A stretch of 64,000 nucleotides of DNA, from positions 3,123,095 through 3,187,094 of the forward strand of contig NW_006917095.1 in assembly GCF_000516985.1 (NCBI RefSeq), given 5' to 3'. This stretch comes from Pestalotiopsis fici W106-1. Taxonomy: Eukaryota; Ascomycota; Sordariomycetes; Amphisphaeriales; Sporocadaceae. Under the pieces are notes generated by a model. It did no database searches and had not been told where the DNA came from. It worked only from the letters and a program-made list of their open reading frames with translations. This document shows positions 19,121 to 57,947 of the stretch, in pieces. A program made the translations under genes and the position numbers. Numbering within the stretch: the stretch's first letter is position 1; each line of letters opens with the position of its first letter.

Positions 19121-21095
19121 TCAGTGAGAGAACGGCCGCATCTTGTACCGCATATCATCCTCTGGGCGTCCTGGCAGGGGCTTGTCCTGGAACATTGGGT
19201 CAATGTACCATGCAGGATCTCCGCCATATTGGCCATCGTCTGAACTTGATTTGGTGTGCGTAATACTGTACCCATTCCCTAGCCAGCGCATCTTATTACC
19301 CGAATTCCGCAGACTTTCCCATTCAAAGTCCTCCCATCGAGGTGATCTCAAAGCCTCGAGTGCGTGCAACGTACTCCCAGGCCACAACCCTATAATATGG
19401 CTCCCGTCGCCGCCCGAACCTTTATACCAAGACTTGCACTGGTCTGTGTAGACAGTCTTCTTAAAGTACGCCTGGCAGTGCTCGACCCAGTCCGACACAC
19501 GTTCTTTCTTGACATTCATTGTGCTGTAATCCTCCTTTTGCAGCTTCCGAATGCACTTGATGATGTAGTCGCCTGCGCTCTCAATGATGATCGTGAGGGC
19601 TCCGCTTCCGACTCCGGCATTAGGCCCCAACATGAAAAACAAATTTGGGAATCCATCGACAGCCAAGGAGAGATATGCTTCTGAATTCGGGCTGAAACGC
19701 TGTGCAAGTGTTGTACCATTTGACCCGTGTACTTGGAACTGCGGAACTCCACTGGTGTTGAACCCAGTGGCACAAACAATGCAATCTAGGTCAATTTGGC
19801 GCCCAGTCTTCAAGAGGATACCTTTCGAATTGACTTCTTTGATGGGATCGGTAATAAAGTCAACGTTAGGTCTGCCTAGGGCTTCGAGGTATCCTGGTCC
19901 TGGGGTCGCACGTCTGCAGCCAACACCAAAGGAAGGGATCAAGAAATCAGCAATTTCCGGCTTTGATGAAAGTCTTTCTCTCATGGCAGCTGTAGACATG
20001 GTGACAGCCATCTTTTGCAGATCTGAGTCTCGATGTGCAACTTCATGGACAGTATTGCCATGGCGTTCAAGCGTTTTACGGAACGCGAGTAGCTTCTCGG
20101 GATCGTTCAGAAACGCATTACGCTGTTCATCAGAGACTAATACATGAGTAATACATACAGAGGCGGGTTTTGTAGGAGGCTTACATTTTGGTCGTGTAGG
20201 ATCCAAGCCAAGTTCCAGCATAGCAGCTATACTTGTGTCAACCTCTGAGACAATACCATTGGAGCAGGGGTATTCAAAAAGAGAGCGAAAGGACAGGAGC
20301 GAATATTTCATGGGGCGCATGACTCCTGAATCACTGTTACTCACAATCACCAAATGGATTTGTGATCCATGTTTTGCTTCTTACGAAGCATGAAAGCTTG
20401 GTTCCTCCGATCTTCTCAAGCTCTGGGACGATCTGTATGGCACTTGAGCCGTTTCCTATCACGCCAATATTCTTGTCTCCAAAATCGTAGCTTGTATCCC
20501 ATGAGGCAGAATGCATAATCTGCCCTTCGAAGGTTCGAAGTCCCGAAATGTCAGGCCACGACGGGGTAGTGAAGAACCCTCTGGCGGAAATCACCACGTC
20601 TGCTTCATCTCTGAAGGTGGTCTTGCTTTGGACGTCTTTGACATCTAGTATCCACTGCTTTGTGGTCGCGTTCCATGTGCATGCTGTGACCTCGTGCTGT
20701 TGCTTGACAAACCTTGTCACGCCGAACTTCTCCGCTACGCCCTGTAGATAGGCGCATATCTCATGCTGAGGAGCATACATGGAAGACCAATCCGGTTTGG
20801 GTTCGAAGGAATACTGATAGCTATGCGATGGAACGTCGCACGCGCAACCTGAATTATCGACCTGTCTTAATATCTGTCATGATCCTAGGAGCGTAGACTT
20901 GAAGTGCTCACCTGGGTATTTGTTCACCCACCACGTTCCACCGATTTGATCCTCCTTTTCGTAGATTCTCAAGTCCACGTTCCGCAGTCGCTGAGGAATT
21001 CGGATACCAAGATAGATTCCTGAATACCCAGCGCCAATGACGCGAATCTTCAGCTTCCGGTGGTTTTCTACCGGAGAATCCTTGATGGTGAACAT
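19121..21095 (-). CDS. Baeyer-Villiger-type flavin monooxygenase
   Basis: BVMOs insert oxygen next to a ketone using FAD and NADPH. The ATG at 21095 opens a frame reaching the first Rossmann motif (VIGAGYSGIYLG) and GGTWWVNKYPG. A canonical intron (20911-20849) then rebuilds YPGCACDVPSHSYQYSF. The BVMO fingerprint FxGxxxHxxxW (FEGQIMHSASW) and the second Rossmann motif (VIGNGSSAIQ) follow. The last exon carries SDEQRNAFLNDPEKLLAFRK, DCIVCATGFNTSG and LGPNAGVGSG. The join between exons 2 and 3 is unclear: the frame stops soon after TWITNPFG, and about 190 unusual bases (20350-20160) precede the next conserved phrase. They could be one long intron. If so the protein is complete, otherwise it is damaged. 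It may tailor a product of the fusion/GTP-cyclohydrolase block (inference). Confidence 0.85.
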
Positions 21096-22294: not shown

Positions 22295-23272
22295 TTATGC
22301 CTCAGGTATGTAGCAAGCCAGTACATCCTTCATTTCCTGGCTTCCCAGCTTGTTCGCGTAGTCAACAGCACTGCCCCAGGCACCCTTGGCCTTGGGATCC
22401 GCACCGTGGTCCAGCAACCATTTCACCCTCTGCACAGCCCCGGCCATGACAGCCTCGACAACCGCGAGTCCAGGCACCTGATGCCGTGACACTTCGCGGG
22501 AATTCACATCAGCGCCGTGTGCGACCAACAAGGCCATGGTCGGGATCAGCTTTTCGTCAAAATCACGCGAGGGCGTCACGCGGCCGACAAAGGGATTCGA
22601 CACGCGGTCGGTTGAAAGAGCCCCGGCGGCCCGATGCAGCGGTGCGCCGTTGCTGATGGACGCTCCGGCAGCTAGGAGGTGTCGGACCGCATTTTCGTCG
22701 CCGTACCTTGCGGCTCTCTCGAGCGCGGCGCATGAGTCCGTCTCGGGCCCGCCGAGGCGATCGCGGTAGTCGCGCTGCGGGCCGAGATTAGGATCGGCGC
22801 CGTGTGCGAGGAACCATTCGAGTAAATTATGGTTGGTAACGATTTCAGGCAGCAACACGGCTCCGTAAAACCCAGGCGTGTTGGGCGTCCAGCCGTGCTG
22901 GGCCAAGAGCTCAAAGAGCGCTATTTGGCTGGACGACGGGGCTGATAGAATACAGCGGGGAGTTTGCCGGGCAATGGGCGCGCCAATGGATAGTGAATAG
23001 GCCGCTACGGCTATCTGGCCAGATCCGAGGGCCACGGCCAGACCATAGTGCAAAAAGGCCGGGGTACTGTGGGTTTCGGCGATGGCGAGCGACTCAACAA
23101 CGTCAAGATGTCCTTGTTGACAGGCAATATAGTAGGGAGTTGGATGAATACTGGGGCCAGGCCTGTAATTAAGTAAGTAGACGTCTGTGGGATGGACGAT
23201 GGGAATGTCGTCGTAAGCAGTGCCCATGCGTTGCGGTTGCGGTTGCGCTTGCATGACATTATTCATCGTCAT
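22295..23272 (-). CDS. Ankyrin-repeat protein
   Basis: A single-exon product of about 325 aa. The first ATG in the open frame is at 23272 (MTMNNVMQAQ); the frame extends further upstream only through a non-ATG codon. Ankyrin helices recur along the protein, with phrases such as TPYYIACQQGHLDVVE, LLEWFLAHGADPN, ALERAARYGDENAVRHLLAAGA, ALLVAHGADVN and VKWLLDHGADPKAKG, giving about six repeats. Ankyrin repeats bind other proteins. No enzymatic domain, signal peptide or membrane segment is visible. It sits 490 bases from the stop of the fusion gene in the same orientation. A link to the neighbouring biosynthetic block is not shown. Confidence 0.88.
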   Translation of the reverse strand: MTMNNVMQAQPQPQRMGTAYDDIPIVHPTDVYLLNYRPGPSIHPTPYYIACQQGHLDVVESLAIAETHSTPAFLHYGLAVALGSGQIAVAAYSLSIGAPIARQTPRCILSAPSSSQIALFELLAQHGWTPNTPGFYGAVLLPEIVTNHNLLEWFLAHGADPNLGPQRDYRDRLGGPETDSCAALERAARYGDENAVRHLLAAGASISNGAPLHRAAGALSTDRVSNPFVGRVTPSRDFDEKLIPTMALLVAHGADVNSREVSRHQVPGLAVVEAVMAGAVQRVKWLLDHGADPKAKGAWGSAVDYANKLGSQEMKDVLACYIPEA

Positions 23273-23761
23273 TCTGTGGCGTCTTGATTCTGAACGCTTT
23301 TCCAATTGTCAGTGATTGAATAATGAATGGCAACGGTTCTATTTACCAATATTGTGGTTGCTGTGAATGAATTATTTAGGTAAGTACGCATGTGCACAGG
23401 CGTATCAGTAGAACGTCAACAAAAGCATCCAGGCAGCCACTATTATAGCCCGCGGCTATTTTTAGTATAGCTAGTAGGTTAGATAGGTATGTACCTGGTT
23501 TTATGTTCTGTACGTACTAATAGGTAGGCACATGAAAAGTATCTAAAAAAAAAAAGCAATTAGAAGATGGTCTACATTTACGAAAACTATGTGTGTGCAA
23601 ATAGACTTCATTAACCCTTCCCGTTGTGTGACCCGAAAGGTGCCTCACTACCCAGCCACACTGTGGCGCATCGCAGTCCTTGATTAAAGCACCCACGATC
23701 CGAATTCCTAGGTATAAGTGTCCAGCCTAACTAAATGCTCGGCACACAATGCAGCAGACTT
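23273..23761. other. Intergenic, with poly-A run
   Basis: Short region between the fusion gene's stop and the ankyrin gene's start. It contains a short A run near 23547-23556 and TAGGTA motifs, but no gene. Confidence 0.5.
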
Positions 23762-26700
23762 TCAAGATCCACCAAAAACCAAGAGACTCTGAATTCTAAC
23801 ATTTCCAAAGCCATGCCGGCGCAGAAGTTCCCGTCCGCGATGGATGGGAAACTCGGCCACGACCAGAATGGTTATATCTGCAGCATCAAGACCAAGACCA
23901 CTCTCTTCAAGGAGCTTCATCATTGCACAAAGCGTCTTTCCAGTGGCAAGCACATCATCAACCACTACCACTGATTTGCAATTACTGCTAGCGTCACGGT
24001 CCATGCCTATCCTCTGGTCTCGACTCTTGACACGCGAAGACGACGATATGTACGATGCCGACTTGACGACGGAGAGGATGGGCGGGGGGAGCTTGGAGGC
24101 TTCGCGCATGAGCAGTAGAGGCACCTTGGTTCGTGTGGCCAATGCTGATGCAATCAAGAATCCGCCGGCCTCGCAACACGCTATGCGGTCAACTTGACTC
24201 CATTCAGATGCATACTGCGCTTCCAAGAGTGACGCGCATAGATCTAGGCCGCCCGGCTGTTCTACAATGCCAAGGATGTGCCGAAACTCAATTCCTGGCC
24301 GGGGATAATTAGGCACTGAGCGTACCATCTTGGCCAGTTTTCCCAGATCCTCATCCAAGAATTGAAGGAGAATATGTTGGGCAAAGTGCTCTGCGGCCTC
24401 ACTGCCAGACGTTTCGTTGTGAAATGTCAGACTGGGCTGATAGTCCACGGTAATCGAGTCTGACTTGCAGAGATTACCGTCTTCGATGCCAGTATCAGTA
24501 TTGTGGCTGTCAAAGCTTCTCCGCAGGATTCGAGTCTTGGTACTGGCTTCAACGCGTATATCCAGTAGCCTCGTGTGCGGCACCAAGTGTGACAAGGTCG
24601 TCACCGGAGCGGCGTCTCTCATTCCGGTAATCAAGAGTACGTCCACATTGCCAGCGTTGTGCACAGCACTGAGAAAGTTTTCGACTGGTAGTCCAGGTCT
24701 CTTTCGCACCTGACCCTGGAAGAATGCTGTCAATGCCGGTCGGTGCTGTTCCTTGTAGATACGATCTCCAAGGAGGCGGTCCAGATCTGCGCCCGTAGCC
24801 GCCGCATACTGGCGCTTGATTTTGTTGCTGATGCTAACTGATGCACATTTCAGGTTGACGTGGACGCACTGATTGAGAAAGGCAACCCATATTTCTGCGC
24901 AATAGTCTTTGCCGGCACCACTGTCGCCAGTGACTAGAATGACAAGCTTTGGTCCTATTGGCAGTTTTGGTAGCGGACATGCATAGGCCAGCACGTTACA
25001 AGGATCGCAATTCTCTTTGAGATGAGCCAGTCGCGGTCGATTTGGGCCAAAGGCCTTGTTCGCCAGTTCGAGGTCTCTTGGATCTGGACCAAGGTCTGCG
25101 CCATAGAAACCGCTGCTCAACGATGAAAGACTTGTTGCGACATTATATACCCATTGCTTGATGGAGCGAGAAATGACGGTGCCGTCTTGTTCGCGTGGCC
25201 AGACACCAGTGATTACGCATGCAAAGTCCCAATCTCGACAGCCAAAAGCTGTAGAAGTGGCTGCCACATCGCTCACCGCTCCACCACCCTGAAGCAGGTG
25301 GATGTAGCATAAGGGTGAAGGGCGAGTCTGGATAGCTGACATGACCACATTCGCGACCTTTGCCGCCCCAATGTTCCTTATGAATGCACAGCGCTTGAAG
25401 GACGAGGTTTTCCCCCCGCCATGCCCCCCATGCATACCGGAAATGTACATCTCCGTGTCAAAGACATCGACGCTGTCCACGATTTTGACGCATTCTTCCG
25501 GTCCCAAGACTTTTTCCAAATCAATATGATCCGGAGTCTCAGATCCGGCCAGGAACGATTGATACAACGTGACACCAACTAGCAGCATTCCTTCATCTCC
25601 AAAGATGTAGGCATCTACTGAAGAGTCTCGCCCCAGCTTCTGAGCAATTTGCTTGTCGAAATCGGCCAGAAAAACAACTGGATTTGCCATGTTTGGAACA
25701 GGAACTTTCCAATTTCGAACCAGAAAGTTCCGAGCCGGTTGTGCCTTCAAAGTGACGCTAGTTACAACACCAAAGTTTGTGCCTGCACCTTTTATTGCCC
25801 AGAGTAGATCGGCCTCGTTATCTGGACGTACTGATCCAGCTGGTCGATAGGCCCTTGGGACATGACCGACATGAAGAACCTGACCAGAATCAACACTCAC
25901 CAGGACGGCGCCAATGATTGCATCGCACGTCAGGCCGTGTATCCGAGATAAGTGTCCAATGCCACCTTGAAGCCATAATCCGGCGCCAACGCTTGGGCGA
26001 GCACCCAGCGGAACAGTCAATCCCGATGCCATGGACTTGCGTATGACGTCTCCCGTATTACAGCCGGCCTCGGCAATGATCAAGTGGTCCAAAGGAAGAG
26101 GTCCATTTGCTCCTTCTTCTTCTCCTGGTTCTTCGAGAATATGAACTTGGTCAAACGCGCCCATGTCGATGGCAACTACATTAGACCACAGACACTGGCC
26201 GCTGTGACCCCCACCAATGATGGTGAGGCCAACTTGGTGGTCCAGAGCCCATTCAACACAATGTTGTAGCTGTCGGATTCCTGTTGGTCTTACGATGGCA
26301 GCAGGACTATGAAGCCGTGCGTCCCGGTTCTTGACTGTCTTTTGCTCCTGGAATACCAGTCCCTCTGATTTGAGAAACTCGAGACTTGTCGAATCTCGGG
26401 TAAAAGCCACAATTTCTTGTGGCGCGCTGAATTTGAGATGGTTGAGATGGTCTTTGTCAAGACGGCCCAGGGTGCGGCACACGATACGCCAATGATCGCG
26501 GACATTCTTGTCAGCTGCGGCGTCCTCGATCGCAAAGCCGGCGATGAAAGCGCTGAACGAGTCTAACGACACGTCGTCATTTTCCACGTAAACGCAACCG
26601 CTAGGGAGAGAAATCGTTCGATAGCAGACCAAGCCGTCTAGATGCAACGTCGCCTCGCGGTGGATGATTACAACCAAACCTCCTGGTGCATCATGCGCAA

Positions 26701-27247
26701 GCAATTCTAGCGCTCGTTCAACAAAACTACGCTTGGGATTCATGCCATACATGCTGTGGCAGAACAGAACAAGGTCAAAGCCTTGGTCTTGGTCATCTTC
26801 ATGCGGTGGAGTACTGCTTTCTGCATGGCGGCCCATTTCGAATGGTGCTCGGTGAATGATGGGTTCGCTTCGAAGTCGAGGCAGCGGGCACTCCCCTCCG
26901 CGGCAGTCGGAGAGCCATGCTTCCAGTCGTGTAGCGTGCAAGGTATTTGGCTCAAATGCAGTATATCTCTTGATCCTGGATCTCATCTCCTGTGAAAGGT
27001 GGCCGAGTACACTCTTTGGGCCAGGACCAATCTCCAAGACGGAGATTCCGGTACGTGAACCAAAGAGAGGGCCCAGCAGTTGGGACAGCTGGGCCATAAA
27101 GCTCTCGTCTGTGGCCCACTCTGGGTCCCGCGCCAAAAGCTCAAAGCCAGTGGCATACTGATACTCGGACAAGACCTGCCTCGGTAAGGGCGTGATGCTG
27201 TCAGCTTTCAGCCAGAGGGCCTTTTTGAGTTCGTTGAGGGTAGCCAT
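23762..27247 (-). CDS. Four-domain fusion: methyltransferase / FAD-linked oxidase / P-loop kinase / APRT-like
   Basis: A single exon encodes 1161 aa from an ATG at 27247. Residues 1-262 are an S-adenosylmethionine methyltransferase-like domain (motif I LEIGPGP, 71-77). Residues about 310-755 are a PCMH/berberine-bridge FAD oxidase: IIGGGHSG (343-350) supplies the flavin-linking His, but the usual second Cys site is replaced (GARPSVGAG), so only one covalent link is expected. A typical oxidase end (RLAHLKENCDPCNVLAY) closes it. Residues about 765-915 have a P-loop (GDSGAGKD, 774-781) and KRQYA/LLGDRIYKEQHR phrases resembling animal-type phosphomevalonate kinase. Residues about 974-1161 match adenine phosphoribosyltransferase, including the PRPP loop VVVVDDVLATGKTL (1093-1106). 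I know no characterised protein with this order. It is divergent from GTP cyclohydrolase I. Confidence 0.88.
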   Translation of the reverse strand: MATLNELKKALWLKADSITPLPRQVLSEYQYATGFELLARDPEWATDESFMAQLSQLLGPLFGSRTGISVLEIGPGPKSVLGHLSQEMRSRIKRYTAFEPNTLHATRLEAWLSDCRGGECPLPRLRSEPIIHRAPFEMGRHAESSTPPHEDDQDQGFDLVLFCHSMYGMNPKRSFVERALELLAHDAPGGLVVIIHREATLHLDGLVCYRTISLPSGCVYVENDDVSLDSFSAFIAGFAIEDAAADKNVRDHWRIVCRTLGRLDKDHLNHLKFSAPQEIVAFTRDSTSLEFLKSEGLVFQEQKTVKNRDARLHSPAAIVRPTGIRQLQHCVEWALDHQVGLTIIGGGHSGQCLWSNVVAIDMGAFDQVHILEEPGEEEGANGPLPLDHLIIAEAGCNTGDVIRKSMASGLTVPLGARPSVGAGLWLQGGIGHLSRIHGLTCDAIIGAVLVSVDSGQVLHVGHVPRAYRPAGSVRPDNEADLLWAIKGAGTNFGVVTSVTLKAQPARNFLVRNWKVPVPNMANPVVFLADFDKQIAQKLGRDSSVDAYIFGDEGMLLVGVTLYQSFLAGSETPDHIDLEKVLGPEECVKIVDSVDVFDTEMYISGMHGGHGGGKTSSFKRCAFIRNIGAAKVANVVMSAIQTRPSPLCYIHLLQGGGAVSDVAATSTAFGCRDWDFACVITGVWPREQDGTVISRSIKQWVYNVATSLSSLSSGFYGADLGPDPRDLELANKAFGPNRPRLAHLKENCDPCNVLAYACPLPKLPIGPKLVILVTGDSGAGKDYCAEIWVAFLNQCVHVNLKCASVSISNKIKRQYAAATGADLDRLLGDRIYKEQHRPALTAFFQGQVRKRPGLPVENFLSAVHNAGNVDVLLITGMRDAAPVTTLSHLVPHTRLLDIRVEASTKTRILRRSFDSHNTDTGIEDGNLCKSDSITVDYQPSLTFHNETSGSEAAEHFAQHILLQFLDEDLGKLAKMVRSVPNYPRPGIEFRHILGIVEQPGGLDLCASLLEAQYASEWSQVDRIACCEAGGFLIASALATRTKVPLLLMREASKLPPPILSVVKSASYISSSSRVKSRDQRIGMDRDASSNCKSVVVVDDVLATGKTLCAMMKLLEESGLGLDAADITILVVAEFPIHRGRELLRRHGFGNVRIQSLLVFGGS

Positions 27248-29130: not shown

Positions 29131-30551
29131 CTATGCCTCAGTGCCCCATGCAGTATACGCTGGCGCGGTTGTACCGTCGCAAGAGTACTGCACAATATAG
29201 GGACTGTTCTCAGTGCTAGAGTCCAAAAAGACGGTGCCATCAGGAGCAGTAACACTGAGCTGGAACACGGCATTGCCCTGTCCCTGTCCAAACAAGACCC
29301 GGATGGGAAGATATTGGCCCTCGACCAAATCAATCGTAGTGCTGCCGCTTCCAGGTCCGTATCCCTGGTGGAAGGGAACGACCAGGTTGGCATTGGCACG
29401 GGTCCAGCCAGCGTAAGCAGTAGAGCCCAACCACAGCGCGGCGATATCGTCCACGCCAGCGAAGCTAAATTTATAGGTTCCGGTGGCGACAGCAAAGAGG
29501 TAGCCCTTGTGGTCCAGCGCGAAATAGTCCGAGTAAAAGGTGCTGCTGCTGCCGTAGATACTAATGGCGACACCGCCCGAGGCATCAATGCCACCAATGG
29601 TGGAGGTCACACCCTGGACATTCGGGGTCTGGGTCTTGTAGACTTCAGCATAAAAGTTGCTGTACGAGGCATCGTTGTTGTCACCCTGGCTGTTGTAGTA
29701 CTCGGCCCACTGCAGACCTTGGTTCTAATGAAGCGAAGTGAGTTAGTTTCTTGTTCCCCGTTCGCTTGTACAGAAACAAATTTGCATCCCAGAAAGATTT
29801 CCCAAGACAAGATGTGGGACCGGGAAATACGCTCTCGGACCATATGCAAGAGAAAGATGGGCTCTTGATACTTACATCGCAGGACGAGGGTGTCGGGCAA
29901 ACAATTTCAGTAGACGTCGACGTGGCGGTGACTGTCACGGTAGGCGTCGTCGTCGCTGAAGCAGCAACCTGAACAATACTAGTGGCGGTCGGGGTCACGG
30001 TCACTGTGGATGTGACAGTCGTGCTTGGAGTAGGGATCGACAAGCAACTGCAGGCGGTTGAGATCTGGGCGCTAGCAAATGTCGCGACGCACGACGGCAA
30101 CGCAGTGGACTTGGAAGTCGAGACAGAGGTGGTGCTGGACTTGGTGGTGGTGGTTGTCTTTTGACCACGCTTTTGCACTGCGGACAGAATGCATGTCGTG
30201 ATGGTTTCAGAACTAATGGTTTATTAGCACCCAATCTCAACTCTCAACAGGGGGGTTGTGATCTCACGCAGTCTCTGTGACAGTCACGGCAGGAGCAGTG
30301 CTTGTGTCGGTTCCAGTGGTTGTCGTAGTGGTCTCGGTGGGAAAGACTGTCGAAGTTGCAGTGGCCGTACTGGTAATGGTAGGAATTGACAAATACGAGC
30401 TACAAAAGGGAGTCGCCGATGAGTACGTTGCCAAGGCCTTGACAACTGCATTCACAACAAGACATTCAACCTGCGAAATGAGGTTCACCGGAGTCGCGTT
30501 TACCGCGACACCTGCCGCCGCGAGGAATGCTGTTGCAACGCGAAAATGCAT
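29131..30551 (-). CDS. Secreted GLEYA-domain adhesin-like protein
   Basis: Three exons. The ATG at 30551 starts a clear signal peptide (MHFRVATAFLAAAGVAVNA). Next come two Thr/Ser/Val-rich stretches with TVTVT-type repeats, separated by a short intron near 30270-30180. The second intron (about 29870-29725) leads to the C-terminal domain. This reads GLQWAEYYNSQ, IGGIDASGG, YKFSFAGVDDIAALWLGSTAYAGWTRANA and a Cys-containing end, the layout of a GLEYA (PA14-like) carbohydrate-binding adhesin domain. Such proteins usually sit at or beyond the fungal wall and bind glycans. No GPI signal is seen after the domain. It lies tail to tail with GTP cyclohydrolase I and is probably unrelated to it functionally. 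Confidence 0.85.
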
Positions 30552-45508: not shown

Positions 45509-46553
45509 TTCTGTAAGTTGTGCAAACTTTTCAAGCAAAATCGCAATGTAAGCATGAAGTTCGACAAGTTGTGTGACTATAGCATTTCTTGGGACTTGAT
45601 ATATTGGCCTATGCTATACACTATATTTTAGGGGGCATGTCCGCACAGCATCTGGTACAGTATGATGGCGGGGCAGTCGCCCCAATTCCGCCTTAGCGAG
45701 ATCATGAGGAAGTGCGCTTAGGAACCTCCAATCTACGTCCTATGTATCTACCTAGACATGCTGCAGGTTCCTACCGGTAGACAAATATCTATTCTAAAAC
45801 CGGAAATTCGCGTGTAGTCATATGATTTGTGAACATTGCATCAAACTTAAAATGTATAAGCATCCCCATCTTGATCTGCCACACAAAATCGAGGGTGCTA
45901 CCACCCCATATGCATCAAGGGTATACCCAGCCAGCGGATTGGGCAACAATGCGATTTTGCTTAGACTTCTTACATGCACTTGCGATCGCTTGCAATCTGG
46001 AATGACGCAGACTATCTTGCCGGTGAAGCAAGGACTTGGTATGGATCCTTCCCCAGACGGCTCGTCTCGACCTATACTGCCCTTCGCTACGGGCAACCTG
46101 CACGCTTCTACTGCAGCCGGTGCGATCTGGAAGAGCCAGGGCAAGACTCCGCTGAATCCCAACATTTTTGCCTCAAGGAAACCAGGCCTATGAAAAAGTA
46201 TTCAGATAAATGTGTAATAATTTAATAACCATCAAGCAGTGCGGCTATGGCATCATTTCTTCAGCTGACATCTGCACAGGCGCCGCTTCAACGCAAGCGA
46301 CGCCATGTCACACCAATTCGCGCCGCATCTGGTGAGTGCTGAAGATCGGCATGGGGCCGCTTCCTAGCCCTGCGAGCGCATCCGAGAATGCAGCAAAGCA
46401 TGATTGATTTCTTTCGTCACATCATTGGCGAACTACCATTTTCTGGGCAGGGGAAGCCAACGCCCAAATCCAGCACTTTGCACAAAGTCGCGCCTCGCTT
46501 GATCGTGTACCAGATCAGATAAAGGCACTTTGGAAATATCTTGCTTGATTACA
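45509..46553. other. Intergenic between divergent permease and oxidase
   Basis: About 1 kb containing two promoters. Frames at 45820-46225 on both strands are open for 80-120 codons and include a CSRCDLEEP phrase, but no family is recognised. They may be relic or chance. Confidence 0.35.
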
Positions 46554-48501
46554 ATGATATTCCCGTGCCTTGTACTTATTTTTGTCATCCTTTCCCTACC
46601 ATTCACAAATGCTGCACCTCCGCTATTCGAATCCGAGGAATTCCAATTAACAGCTCAAGAAATCCAAAGCGCCGGCAACTTGTCTCATTTGTTTTCATTT
46701 GGAACTCTTCAAGTCACAAAAGCTGAACAAAGACCATGCAAGGTCTATCCAGGTGATGATGAATGGCCTTCATCGCAAGCATGGCAAGCGCTCAACGACA
46801 TAACAAATGGCCGTCTGCTCCAACCGAGGCCAAAGGCAGCTCCATGCTACAGTGGTTCCGAATACAACAGTACTAGATGCAATGAAATTTCTGAAAAATG
46901 GACAGATCCGGCCACTCATTATGATGATCCACTTGAAATGATGGCTCCGATATATCAAGGACTCACTTGCTTGCCGCCCACCATTCTGGATACCAAGACC
47001 TGTACCATGGGGGCGTTTCCAGTCCATGTTCTCAATGCAACCAGGCCGGTACACGTTCAGGCTGCTGTCAATTTTGCCCGGAATACTGGCATTCGACTAG
47101 TCATTCGGAATACAGGTCACGACTATCTAGGTAAATCCGGCGGTGCTGGATCTCTAAGCATTTGGACCCATCATATGAAGGATATCAAGTATATTCCAGA
47201 GTACACAGCCCAAGATGGAACCTACTCGGGACCTGCGTTCAAGGCGGGCGCTGGGGTTCAGGCTTTCGAGCTCTACCAGGCTGCACACGAGAAAGGACGT
47301 GTAGTTGTCGGCGGAGACTGTGCGGTAATTTCACAAGGTCGCATATTGTCCAGTTCCTCGCTGACGCATCTCCTAGACAATCGGAATCATGGGTGGATAC
47401 ATTCATGGTGGTGGCCATAGTCCTCTCAGTTCCGTCTATGGGACCGGCTCAGATCAAGTCTTGGCCTTTGAAGTAGTCACATCCGACGGCCGATTCATCA
47501 CCGCCGACGCTGGACACAACCAAGATCTCTTCTGGGCCCTTCGAGGCGGCGGAGGGAGTACTTTTGGAGTCACCATATCGGTCACTGTCAAGGCTCATCC
47601 GGATGTCTACACGACTGTATCCAACTTCTCCTTTAGCTCTGAAATCTTGGGCATTGAACCTTTCTGGAGAGGTGTCAGGTCTTATTTTGACTACTTTGTT
47701 GCAAATGCCGATGCTGAGACGTACTCGTACTTTCTCATTCTCCCAGATTACCCACGACAAGGCGTAACAACATTCGATTTGGTCGCTGTAGTTGCCCCAA
47801 ACAAGACTACACGGGAATTTTTGAAGCTTTTTAATCCATGGTTTACCAGATTGAAGGACCTAGGTATAATGTTTGACCCCAATGTCAAGCACTGGGACTC
47901 ATACTATGACGCCTGGCTTCACACTTTTCCTGGTGAGTCGGTCGAACAAACTCACTCCGCCATGGGCTCGAGGCTCTTTCCAAGAAACAACTTTGTCGAC
48001 CCAGTACTGCTCAATCAAACCTTTGAGGCCATTAAAGAATCAGTAGAACAAGGTCGCCAGGTTTACGCATTCAACATGAAGAATACCTCTCCCGATGATA
48101 CCGACAATGCAGTCAATCCTGCGTGGCGCGAAAACATTCTCTTTGCAATACAATCGTTTAGCTGGCCAGAAAATGCTACAGCGAGGGAAATAATGAATGT
48201 ACGCAGGCGGTTTACTCACGACCATATGCAAAAGTGGAGAGACATTACACCAGGTGCTGGCAGTTATCTTGCAGAGGCAGATCGTCTCGAGCCCGACTTT
48301 CAACGGAGTTTTTACGGGTACAAATATCCGCGTCTCTTGCGCATCAAGCAAAAGTATGATCCAATGGATGTATTTTACGCTGCGACGGCGGTGGGCAGTG
48401 AGCGTTGGCGTGTCCGGGTGGACAGCGGTCTCCCAGGCGAAAATGGACCATTGTGTCGAGACGGATCATATGCCACGCTTCGGCAACAATTTCTTCTTTG
48501 A
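46554..48501 (+). CDS. Secreted FAD-linked oxidoreductase (berberine-bridge type)
   Basis: A 631-aa product of two exons (46554-47324 and 47377-48501) joined in frame. The ATG at 46554 opens a signal peptide (IFPCLVLIFVILSLPFTNA). The PCMH FAD-binding domain includes VIRNTGHDYLGKS with the flavin-linking His. The second covalent site is rebuilt across the splice: GGDCA/TIGIMGGYIHGGGHSPL, so bicovalent FAD is expected. The substrate half ends with the BBE-domain phrase YPRLLRIKQKYDPMDVFYA. Several Asn-X-Ser/Thr sites suit secretion. Such enzymes oxidise sugars or metabolites and often sit in biosynthetic clusters. The methyltransferase 1 kb downstream in the same orientation is a plausible partner (inference). 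Confidence 0.92.
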
Positions 48502-53845: not shown

Positions 53846-54191
53846 GTTTATGGATGCAATATTCAATATGGCTTCTGATTGCATGACTTTTGAAAGGAAA
53901 TATTGGGCATTCTGGTACATTATATACCCATTATATACCATGTCATCTCCAGCTTCTTGCCGTACCCGAGCAGAAATGGTTCCCACCCGTGTTATAGTGC
54001 TGTTCGCTAGTGCTTTAGCGCACAGAGCCCATCGCGCGCGGGATACAATCTACGCGCGACATAGAAAGAGTGACGAGGACCTTGACCACGGGCATTTTCA
54101 CACACTAGATCCCGCGCAAATTCCATCGCGCGCGCAATATTGACCAGGATCAGCAAAGCCCCCATGTTTGATTGAAAACTTGAAAACACCA
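53846..54191. promoter_or_regulatory. Divergent promoter, NmrA-like gene / Zn2Cys6 regulator
   Basis: Just 346 bases separate two opposite start codons. GCGCGCG palindromic words occur several times (about 54035, 54053 and 54127-54135). They could be regulatory sites, but none can be assigned. Confidence 0.5.
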
Positions 54192-55916
54192 ATGCCGAAA
54201 AAGAAGCCAGAGAATTGCTGGACTTGCCGGCTGAGACGCAAGAAATGCGACGGAACACAACCAACGTGTCGAGTTTGCGCCAGCCTCGAAATCTCGTGTC
54301 ATTACAGCGAGACGCAACCAGAGTGGATGGATGGCGGGCCAAGGCAGCAGGCCGAAGCTCAGCGCAGGAAATCAGAGGTCAAATTAAGCGCAGACCGCCG
54401 GAGAAAAGAAAAGGTTGTGCGGCGCCTACAATCCGAGTTATTGTCCGATCCAGGCCGAGATGAGTATCATCAGGGTGTTGCGTCTCCCTTGACAACCGGC
54501 GCAACGCCAGCCCCGGACAAAGAGTCTCGGGGCTTTACACAATCTTCCTCGGCGTTGGAAGCCACATCCCCAGGCGGCAGCACTTCAAATGTTTGGCTGT
54601 CACACCTAAACTGCGACTATGACATTGGCTTGGTAGTTGCTTTCCTTGACCATGTTTTCCCCTTATTGTCTCCATTCTACCAGCCCTCTGTACTAGAAGG
54701 CGGCCGCATGTGGCTTTTGGCAGTAATCATGAGAGACAAGGTTTTTCGTCTACACACAAATGCCATAACATCGTACCTGCTGTCTGTCATTCCATGCCGC
54801 TCAGAGACCATAACAAATACATGCAAGCTGTATGCTCTGGAAGGTGCGCAACGTCAAAGAGATCTCGCCATTAGTCATCTCCAAAGCGACCTTTCAAGTC
54901 TAATCACACGGGGCATACACAACAATTTGTCCGAGACTGCAACACTACTCACCAATATGGTCAATGTACTCGATTTGGAAAGAACCTTGGCAGACGGAGA
55001 CGAGTGGCAAATCCACCTTGAGGCTGCCCTCAACCTTATTCGTGACCTGCTGCAAGACGAGTCTGGCTTGCAAGGTTCAAATTGGTCCTTGGTCCTCAGA
55101 CGGCTTTCTGACCGCTCCAAGCCCGCCGGCTTCGACATGTGGAGTATCGACCAGGCTGCCTTTCGTTTCTCTGTCGCGAAACTTGTTGTGTTTGATATTG
55201 TCACCAGCAGCTCGTTGGGACGGCCTCCAGGGCTACTATCTCATCACCAAGAACTTCTCCGAGGCGATCGAGATCTAATGGACAGGAACCCTCTGCAGTT
55301 GACCGAGGTGAATGGTTGCCAGAACTGGGCGATGGCCCTCCTTGGGGAAGTAGTCGCCCTCGATGCTTGGAAGAAGGACCAAGAAAAGCAAAAAACCCAA
55401 TACAGGCAGCACTTACTCCTTCGTGGTGAGGACATTTACACCAGACTCAACGATGGTCTCGTACAACTTGACAAGTGTTCTAATTCTCAGGATAATGTAA
55501 TGACCATGGACAGCCTAACCTCTAGGGCGCCGCCGCCGCCGTACGTTATAACAAAGTTATGGACATTCGCCACTCTTGCGTACCTGCATATTGTTCTGCA
55601 TGGATGGCAACCATCTAACCGCGAGTTTCGCCACTCGGTCTTTCATGCTACGGAGCTCATCAAGCAGCTATCTCCGTGGCCTCTTCATCTGCGAGCTCAA
55701 TCCTGGCCTCTGTGCGTCGCGGGCTGTCTTGCTTCTGAGGAGGAAAGGCCATTTTACCAGAGCCTGGAGAGCATCTTGGGTGCACTGGCGAGCTTTGGGT
55801 CGATTCAGCAGACGAAAAGGATATGGAAAAGGGTGTGGGCAGACAAATCTGATGAACCTCGAAAAGATGTAGCAACATGTCTTGCAAGCTGTGATTATAA
55901 GGCATTTCTGGCTTAG
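54192..55916 (+). CDS. Zn2Cys6 transcription factor
   Basis: A single-exon nuclear regulator of 574 aa. The ATG at 54192 starts MPKKKPENCWTCRLRRKKCD, and the zinc cluster is C-X2-C-X6-C-X6-C-X2-C-X6-C within residues 8-36. A basic KRRKS/RRRKEK region follows. The rest matches the second type of fungal TF middle domain (DUF3468-like): DIGLVVAFLDHVFPLLSPFY, MRDKVFRLHTNAITSYLLSV, HLQSDLSSLI, WTFATLAYLHIVLHGW and SWPLCVAGCLASEEERPFY. It is complete and unbroken. The divergent NmrA-like gene is the most likely co-regulated neighbour (inference). Confidence 0.92.
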   Translation: MPKKKPENCWTCRLRRKKCDGTQPTCRVCASLEISCHYSETQPEWMDGGPRQQAEAQRRKSEVKLSADRRRKEKVVRRLQSELLSDPGRDEYHQGVASPLTTGATPAPDKESRGFTQSSSALEATSPGGSTSNVWLSHLNCDYDIGLVVAFLDHVFPLLSPFYQPSVLEGGRMWLLAVIMRDKVFRLHTNAITSYLLSVIPCRSETITNTCKLYALEGAQRQRDLAISHLQSDLSSLITRGIHNNLSETATLLTNMVNVLDLERTLADGDEWQIHLEAALNLIRDLLQDESGLQGSNWSLVLRRLSDRSKPAGFDMWSIDQAAFRFSVAKLVVFDIVTSSSLGRPPGLLSHHQELLRGDRDLMDRNPLQLTEVNGCQNWAMALLGEVVALDAWKKDQEKQKTQYRQHLLLRGEDIYTRLNDGLVQLDKCSNSQDNVMTMDSLTSRAPPPPYVITKLWTFATLAYLHIVLHGWQPSNREFRHSVFHATELIKQLSPWPLHLRAQSWPLCVAGCLASEEERPFYQSLESILGALASFGSIQQTKRIWKRVWADKSDEPRKDVATCLASCDYKAFLA

Positions 55917-56745: not shown

Positions 56746-57947
56746 ATGGCACGATCGTTTTCGATTCCCATGGCATTGTGAGTACCTGATATACTGATAT
56801 AGCTCTGCAGAGCGACCAAGGAAACCAGGAGCTAATATTTCTTTTCCTTTCAAGTTGGGGTATGATGATTCTTCTCATCACCCTCGCCCATGCCATGCCG
56901 ATTCCGGCGGATGGAAACCAATACGGCGACCTTGATCATCAAGGCTGGGATCACCATGTCCCGCAGGCGCTGGCGCAACATGCCACGGAAGACCAGTTGA
57001 GATTTCAGCCGGCGCTCGACTTTGACAAGGATGGCTGTTACAACGCTCCCGCCATTGATGCACAGGGAAACGTCAATCATGGCATGCATCACGATGGTAC
57101 CTCGGCTAATGGTATGGTTCCCCAAGCTGAGAATTCCAAAACGCGAGACTTGGACTGCCCAGAATTTGACAGCTGGCTAACCTTGCGCTTGATAGATCGT
57201 TGCCGTAACCCATCATATCTCGATAATAATAACGTATATGTGCGCTCAAAGTGCAATAACAATTGGTGCGCGCACATGTACGCCTATTACTTTGAGAAGG
57301 ACGTGGCGGTCGAGAATTTCATCATCGATATCGGCGGCAGCAGACACGACTGGGAGAACGTAATCGTGTTCCACGAGATGAACTCGACTGATGTCAAACA
57401 CGTCGCCATCTCAGAGGAGTACGGTTACAGTGTCAGAGTAGGCGACTACGTAAAGTATGACAGCGGCACCCACCCAAAGGTCGTATATCACAAGAACGGA
57501 GGCTCCAGACACTCCTTTCGGTGGTCCGACAAGGGCGACGAAAAGGACGGGCCCGAGAATGACAAGCACGTTTGGTACCGCGGCCCCCTCGTGGATTACG
57601 ACAATGGGTTTCCCAGCACGGCCATTCGCGACACGTTGATGAGACACGACTTTATAGAGGACAAGAATGTGATTCCCCTGCGGCCCTGGACCTTCGAGGC
57701 CTATCTTCGCGATGCCATTGTCAGGGTCAAGGGCAATGGAGTTGGAGACTTTCACGAGTTTCACAAGGACTTTAACCGCGAGTTCTTCTTACCCTCGGAA
57801 ATGGACAAGGAGATGTGCAAGATTTGGAAACCCCCCTTGTTGTTCCCTCCGGAAACCTACGAGCGGCCTTGCAAGAACAACGATCCGGGCTTTTGGGATT
57901 GGATTGCGAGCTTCTTTGATGGCTCGCACCCAAGGTGGCCACTCTGA
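56746..57947 (+). CDS. NLP-family (NPP1, necrosis/ethylene-inducing-like) secreted protein
   Basis: Two exons (56746-56777, 56855-57947) give 374 aa. From the ATG at 56746 the splice yields a good signal peptide (IPMAFWGMMILLITLAHA). The NPP1 domain covers about residues 75-300. It includes CNNNWCAHMYAYYFEKD and, in the place of the family's GHRHDWE heptapeptide, SRHDWENVIVF preceded by Gly-Gly, so the first His is Ser. Several family members are cytolytic to plants, others are not; the change and the long C-terminal extension (ending DWIASFFDGSHPRW) leave activity open. An in-frame ATG at 56521 would add 75 residues and hide the signal peptide, so 56746 is preferred. Confidence 0.85.

Follow-up and report, generated by a model that had tools for sequence, protein, structure and literature searches.

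A single-exon gene of Pestalotiopsis fici encodes a four-domain fusion protein with full-length relatives in Pezizomycotina

We analysed a stretch of 64,000 nucleotides from the genome of Pestalotiopsis fici W106-1 (the window; GCF_000516985.1, contig NW_006917095.1, positions 3,123,095 to 3,187,094), and our subject is one gene on its minus strand whose product joins four enzyme-like domains in a single chain. An earlier note on this DNA had described one uninterrupted frame of 1161 aa in which parts resembling a methyltransferase (MT), a flavin adenine dinucleotide (FAD) oxidase, a phosphomevalonate kinase (PMVK) and an adenine phosphoribosyltransferase (APRT) follow one another in that order. 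The open reading frame (ORF), the Pfam matches and the relatives of the protein all agree with this description, and the four motifs that the note quoted, LEIGPG, GGGHSG, GDSGAGKD and VVVVDDVLATGKTL, are present in the translation. The gene and its parts lie at the following positions of the window.

23762..27247, minus strand: four-domain fusion protein, complete single-exon ORF of 1161 aa, uninterrupted from ATG to stop
26333..27247, minus strand: N-terminal class I S-adenosylmethionine MT-like module, residues 1-305; motif I EIGPG at 27020-27034
24956..26332, minus strand: FAD-linked oxidase module (PCMH/BBE type), residues 306-764; PF01565, PDB matches, His348 and Arg417
24353..24955, minus strand: P-loop module resembling PMVK and nucleoside monophosphate (NMP) kinases, residues 765-965; P-loop GDSGAGKD, residues 774-781, at 24905-24928
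23765..24352, minus strand: type I phosphoribosyltransferase (PRTase)-like, APRT-related module (PRT), residues 966-1161; PF00156, APRT structures and residue comparison
23930-23965, minus strand: phosphoribosyl pyrophosphate (PRPP) loop of the PRT module, residues 1095-1106
24158-24178, minus strand: altered pyrophosphate (PPi) loop of the PRT module, CCEAGGF

When the ORF was shuffled 200 times at the mononucleotide level, open runs reached 195 codons at most, compared with 1161 aa for the ORF itself. Both ends of the protein are conserved in 23 aligned family members, with a MAT start of three invariant residues and an LL.F.G end. This is therefore one gene and not several merged through a missed intron or stop, which the conserved joins between the domains also rule out.

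The architecture belongs to a family and is not singular. A whole-protein search scored 7994 candidates and returned 1096 proteins at E <= 0.001, of which we consider the best 120, the window's own included; these are ranked by a whole-length score that favors full-length proteins, and residue counts out of 120 below refer to them. All 120 carry PF04275, PF00156 and PF01565 at 96-100% query coverage, their lengths are 1110-1178 aa, and, the own copy excepted, they are 56-67% identical to the window protein. The search of other proteomes that the earlier note had suggested thus retrieved full-length relatives. Organism names are attached to 43 of them, and all 43 are Pezizomycotina (classes assigned from general knowledge, with six lineages looked up). 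The nearest relative is a Neopestalotiopsis clavispora protein, 67-68% identical; to the remaining rows the window protein is about 59% identical (median 0.590), and the median over all pairs is 82%. Full-length proteins are also called on short metagenome contigs, which suggests that other copies lack introns as well, the DNA itself having been read for the window copy only. Genome searches in which the best candidates were scored gave a single full-length match in P. fici, 19 further matches, of which one lies in the PRT part and the others in the FAD part, and a single match to PF04275.

Relatives are annotated in their sources as 'hypothetical protein', 'adenine phosphoribosyltransferase' or 'phosphoribosyl transferase domain protein', among others. 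As the earlier note had supposed, no characterised member of the family turned up in the literature, here searched among open-licence papers. One paper names a gene 'related to phosphomevalonate kinase' and gives no domain details (PMC7078317).

Conservation is even across the parts in the main clade: the median identities of one member (P0010) to the others are 0.759-0.789 for MT, linker, FAD, kinase and PRT. Of 320 columns with at least 98% uniformity across the 118 other rows, 298 are kept in the window copy; its 22 departures are distributed as 5/46 in MT, 1/13 in the linker, 9/155 in FAD, 1/44 in the kinase and 6/62 in PRT. Its P-loop and PRPP loop are both intact, and by sequence it looks functional. 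The Neopestalotiopsis copy (P0002) departs at 29 uniform columns, one of which breaks the P-loop: tryptophan replaces its last glycine (G779W), making this the only row of 120 without the GK pair, and its kinase may be dead.

In the MT part, Methyltransf_23 (PF13489) matches residues 53-201 with E 2e-4 and 21.6 bits, below the 27-bit cut-off, and reaches 24.8 bits when the N-terminal piece of the window protein is scanned alone. The same family was matched at E <= 0.01 by all seven N-terminal pieces scanned, the window's among them. Motif I, EIGPGP, is present in 109/120 rows, and E72 and the following acidic residue E99 are each present in 120/120. No PDB sequence matched this part at E <= 1; a Foldseek search with its structure model ranked NNMT and other methyltransferases first. 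Judged from this poor model, it may be most like histamine N-methyltransferase, to which it is 13-14% identical.

In the second part, PF01565 (FAD_binding_4) matches residues 315-460 (1.5e-13, 51.1 bits against a cut-off of 26.4), and the BBE C-terminal domain matches weakly at the end of the module, below its cut-off (15.8 against 20.6 bits). In the PDB, this part matches 6-hydroxy-D-nicotine oxidase (6-HDNO), EncM and chitooligosaccharide oxidase (ChitO), PCMH/BBE oxidases with which it shares FAD_binding_4 and the histidine of the GGH motif. The histidine of 6-HDNO aligns with His348 (26204-26206), kept in 119/120 rows. The fusion protein differs from these oxidases by its three other fused parts and by Arg417 (120/120), which occupies the second, cysteinyl FAD-link position of bicovalent enzymes; GTCPG of ChitO aligns with GARPS here, a departure from the bicovalent ChitO and GOOX type. 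The pattern fits attachment of FAD through one histidine, for which His348 is the candidate.

The third part belongs to the PF04275 family (residues 772-889, 2.1e-21, 76.4 bits against a curated cut-off of 33.8), as the earlier note had predicted in calling it an unexpected P-loop PMVK-like domain for a fungus. K780 and D781 are present in 120/120 rows and the GK of the P-loop in 119/120. In particular, the P-loop GKD, S..IK..(Y/W)A and YKExxR of animal PMVK (human 3ch4, silkworm 7xnd) align with the fusion kinase, as do later arginines of the silkworm enzyme, and PMVK heads the results of both fold searches made with the model, with adenylate-kinase-type folds tied in Z. However, the fusion kinase is only about 20% identical to animal PMVK and is embedded in a larger chain. 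The Arg-Arg pair of silkworm PMVK, which we take to have a role in that enzyme, aligns with Arg-Asp (R877 120/120, D878 115/120). The PMVK-like label therefore stands for the Pfam family and the model fold, and fails at the level of the specific enzyme: the PMVK equivalog TIGR01223 scores 32.8 bits, far below its cut-off of 188.15, and an ERG8-type GHMP kinase is encoded on another contig of the genome (C10). The GHMP-type model TIGR01219 (ERG8) has no match at the fusion locus, and its three genome matches all lie on that contig. Phosphomevalonate kinase is treated as a GHMP kinase in one source (PMC13412983). Because the equivalog cut-off is missed and an ERG8-type kinase is present elsewhere, a mevalonate-pathway role of the fusion kinase is improbable.

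The fourth part is a type I PRTase domain (PF00156 at 995-1117, 3e-14, 53 bits against 26.3), so that the kinase and transferase parts, for which the earlier note had proposed a domain search, both exceed their Pfam cut-offs. Its closest structures are those of APRT (E 4e-21, up to 77.6 bits). It shares with APRT the fold and the PRPP loop, whose residues are nearly invariant (D1097 119/120, D1098 120/120, T1102 118/120, G1103 120/120). It lacks three features that we take to have roles in APRT. The PPi loop, Asp-Ser-Arg-Gly-Phe in human APRT, reads Glu-Ala/Val-Gly-Gly-Phe, with glycine at the place of the arginine in 120/120 rows; the lysine of the following Arg-Lys pair is replaced (Glu 114, Asp 4, Ala 1, Lys 1 of 120); and the Glu-Tyr-Gly of the hood is found in 0/120, where a longer, partly conserved segment stands instead. 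The cut-offs of the NCBIfam APRT equivalogs are missed (97.4 against 125 bits; TIGR01090, 88.6 against 185.85). As a control, a separate APRT-like gene of the same genome (contig C11) has DARGF, RKKGK and KEYG. The APRT-like label thus holds for the domain type and its PRPP loop, and not for the residues that the genome's own APRT keeps. Because these are missing, adenine salvage by the fusion protein is improbable, and what remains for the PRT part is a different acceptor or a role in sensing PRPP. The fusion is not a replacement for the ERG8-type and APRT genes, both of which the genome carries separately.

Shorter family members bear on how strictly the four parts go together. We considered the best 120 of 153 matches to a kinase profile and the best 120 of 172 matches to an MT profile, and in both sets the organism names given are those of fungi; each of the 240 sequences aligns to the window protein. 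A closer look at 32 of those with organism names showed that they cover arbitrary stretches of the family sequence, several with internal pieces missing. Our reading, at the protein level only, is that most are shortened genes or broken gene models (Fusarium, Penicillium, Colletotrichum, Plenodomus and others). Shorter relatives such as P0278, P0329 and P0354, which stop close to the MT/FAD border, may be methyltransferase-only genes or shortened copies.

The distribution of the family conflicts with fungal classes. A 44-row tree holds the 43 organism-named rows and the window, with the 76 unnamed rows left out, and a 30-row tree omits a further 14 metagenome-type rows (10 marked as metagenome-assembled genomes, 4 by judgement), the rest being judged isolates. 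Class labels change 13 times in the 44-row tree, compared with a least possible number of 7 and a mean of 26.2 for shuffled labels, so that the labels are still clustered. In the approximately unbiased (AU) test, Leotiomycete monophyly is rejected in both trees (p-AU 4e-7 with 44 rows, 4e-75 with 30), as is Lecanoromycete monophyly (p-AU 1e-118, 44 rows) and the placing together of two Hyaloscypha (p 9e-4, 30 rows). The Orbilia copy stands beside that of the Leotiomycete Venustampulla with starred support (30 rows). Identity between classes reaches 0.876.

These observations suggest horizontal spread between classes as the simplest reading. Ancient paralogy competes seriously with it: vertical descent combined with old duplications and losses would also explain the tree, and we regard this as a real, if somewhat doubtful, possibility. 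Several points weigh on its side and against horizontal transfer. The trees were made by a quick method from one gene and have short inner branches, monophyly is not rejected for the Sordariomycetes with the window (p 0.356, 44 rows) or for Hypoxylon (p 0.136, 30 rows), and the genus tests were picked after the tree had been seen. Moreover, the 15 closest cross-class pairs all include Lepraria or Lasallia, without which the top cross-class identity is 0.831 (Venustampulla-Orbilia), and three of the five congeneric pairs (0.885, 0.884 and 0.868) are closer than every cross-class pair that remains. On the other hand, with those two lichen fungi set aside, 66 of 242 cross-class pairs still exceed the Hyaloscypha pair (0.79) and 106 of 242 the Hypoxylon pair (0.775), the yardstick being congeneric pairs of the same protein and not genome-wide genes. 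The pairing of the Orbilia and Venustampulla copies, with its starred support, likewise speaks against purely vertical descent.

In the 44-row tree, end branches are among the shortest for the copies from the lichen fungi Lepraria, Psora, Gyalolechia, Umbilicaria and Lasallia and from Geoglossomycetes, which might place these copies close to where the spread began. A prokaryotic or viral origin of the fusion was also considered and rejected, as scans with two short peptide patterns, which single domains and distant relatives could escape, confirmed no relative among 20 pattern matches in GTDB genomes or 17 in IMG/VR. PF04275 was matched in 0/14 control prokaryotes.

Returning to the fusion protein itself, its family has, as far as sequence can tell, conserved sites in all four parts. 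We tentatively propose, as a possibility, that a single polypeptide here carries a self-contained pathway of biosynthesis or modification, whose substrate would be PRPP-derived or nucleotide-like. The C-terminal domain would bind PRPP or a PRPP-derived 5'-phosphate and, using an acceptor that is not adenine, form or handle a nucleotide-like intermediate. The PMVK/NMP-kinase-like domain would then phosphorylate a phosphate of this intermediate, the histamine-N-methyltransferase-like domain would N-methylate it, and the histidyl-FAD oxidase would oxidise it with O2. These activities, the common substrate and the order of the steps are what we infer from the domains. A purine- or pterin-like substrate, as the earlier note had suggested, is possible, with no feature pointing to pterins. 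With a whole pathway in one gene, no cluster is needed and the gene could move as a unit, which fits both the class-crossing tree and the many shortened copies. The fullest form of this proposal appears rather unlikely to us: an intronless, one-gene, four-step pathway to an N-methylated, oxidised and diphosphorylated nucleotide-like metabolite, moved horizontally among Orbiliomycetes, Leotiomycetes, Lecanoromycetes, Dothideomycetes and other classes and decaying in many recipients.

Some findings count against a common pathway. That the motifs are conserved does not establish a common molecule for the four sites, the structure model of the MT part is poor (pLDDT 54), and the MT part and the linker are the least conserved parts of the window protein (0.529 and 0.394 to the rest, compared with 0.585-0.645 elsewhere). 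In addition, methyltransferase-only proteins, which are possible, would weaken the view that the fusion is obligatory, and with several APRT residues absent the PRT domain may not be a transferase.

An alternative is that the four activities were fused without a shared pathway, for co-expression or stability only, each with its own substrate. The common substrate of the four parts does rest on inference, and the domain types are drawn from unrelated pathways. The ends of the MT-search matches are broad and peak near the MT/FAD border (33 of the best 120 of 172 at residues 290-335), so that methyltransferase-only members may exist, with the length filter of that search favoring lengths that end there. 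However, the best 120 full-length matches keep all parts at similar conservation, and the kinase domain alone is covered by only 2 of the best 120 of 153 kinase-search matches. We consider this alternative unlikely.

A further alternative is that the PRTase-like domain is a regulator like Bacillus PurR, which would sense PRPP or nucleotides and switch the other three activities by purine status. The retained PRPP-loop Asp-Asp would suit such a sensor, combined as it is with the loss of the PPi-loop arginine and Glu-Tyr-Gly that the genome's own APRT retains, and PurR structures are among the matches of the PRT part. Those matches reach 31.4 bits, well short of the APRT chains, and a family-specific loop, REAGKLPPP..S..K..S..SS, is conserved in the PRT part and suggests a re-shaped working site. 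We consider a regulatory domain of this kind unlikely. Finally, a second, animal-type phosphomevalonate kinase joined to adenine salvage in ordinary primary metabolism, to which the PF04275 and APRT-like profile matches might point, is highly improbable given that the protein scores under the cut-offs of all 25 NCBIfam models listed, that ERG8-type kinase and APRT genes are present elsewhere in the genome, and that the second arginine of the PMVK pair and the APRT residues are gone.

Our proposal of a one-polypeptide pathway can be compared with two fungal systems. Pentafunctional fungal enzymes of the AROM type likewise carry several activities in one polypeptide; they catalyse known steps of a single pathway, whereas the steps here are proposed. 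In plan, the closest known counterpart is Cns3, which joins a nucleoside kinase at its N-terminus to a HisG-type PRT and belongs to the cordycepin/pentostatin gene set of Cordyceps militaris; its role in heterologous cordycepin synthesis is unconfirmed according to the source (PMC8719641). The likeness, drawn from that description and not from sequence, is that of a fungal kinase-PRT fusion. The protein described here differs in that its kinase is PMVK-like, its PRT is APRT-like, and an MT and an FAD oxidase are in the same chain; no HisG is found among its Pfam matches at E <= 1.

Two candidate contexts of the gene were considered. Carriage by a Starship was rejected, as the captain family DUF3435 (PF11917) has three matches in the genome, on contigs C3, C1 and C2, and none on the contig of the fusion gene (C5); a distant or lost captain is possible. 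A biosynthetic cluster was also rejected, as no polyketide or peptide synthase model matched among the 20 window ORFs scanned against Pfam, which include FMO-like, ankyrin, GLEYA, SDR, P450, FAD and transcription-factor matches. Individual neighbors are the following.

20340-20876 and 22298-23308, minus strand: FMO-like monooxygenase stretch and ankyrin-repeat ORF, downstream of the fusion gene on the same strand
29134-29724, minus strand: ORF with a GLEYA/PA14-type domain
46503-48498, plus strand: second FAD_binding_4/BBE oxidase, split over two overlapping ORFs
54144-55913, plus strand: Zn2Cys6 transcription factor ORF, 590 aa stop to stop
56790-57944, plus strand: ORF of the NPP1 necrosis-inducing protein family

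Whatever its chemistry, the family illustrates that naming a multidomain protein after a single domain misleads. If the proposed pathway is real, a metabolite of many fungal classes has been overlooked behind the annotations 'adenine phosphoribosyltransferase', 'phosphomevalonate kinase' and 'hypothetical protein'. One-gene pathways would escape gene-cluster mining and are easily expressed and tested. If the reading is right, this one could account for the passage of a pathway from one fungal class to another with neither a cluster nor a visible mobile element involved.

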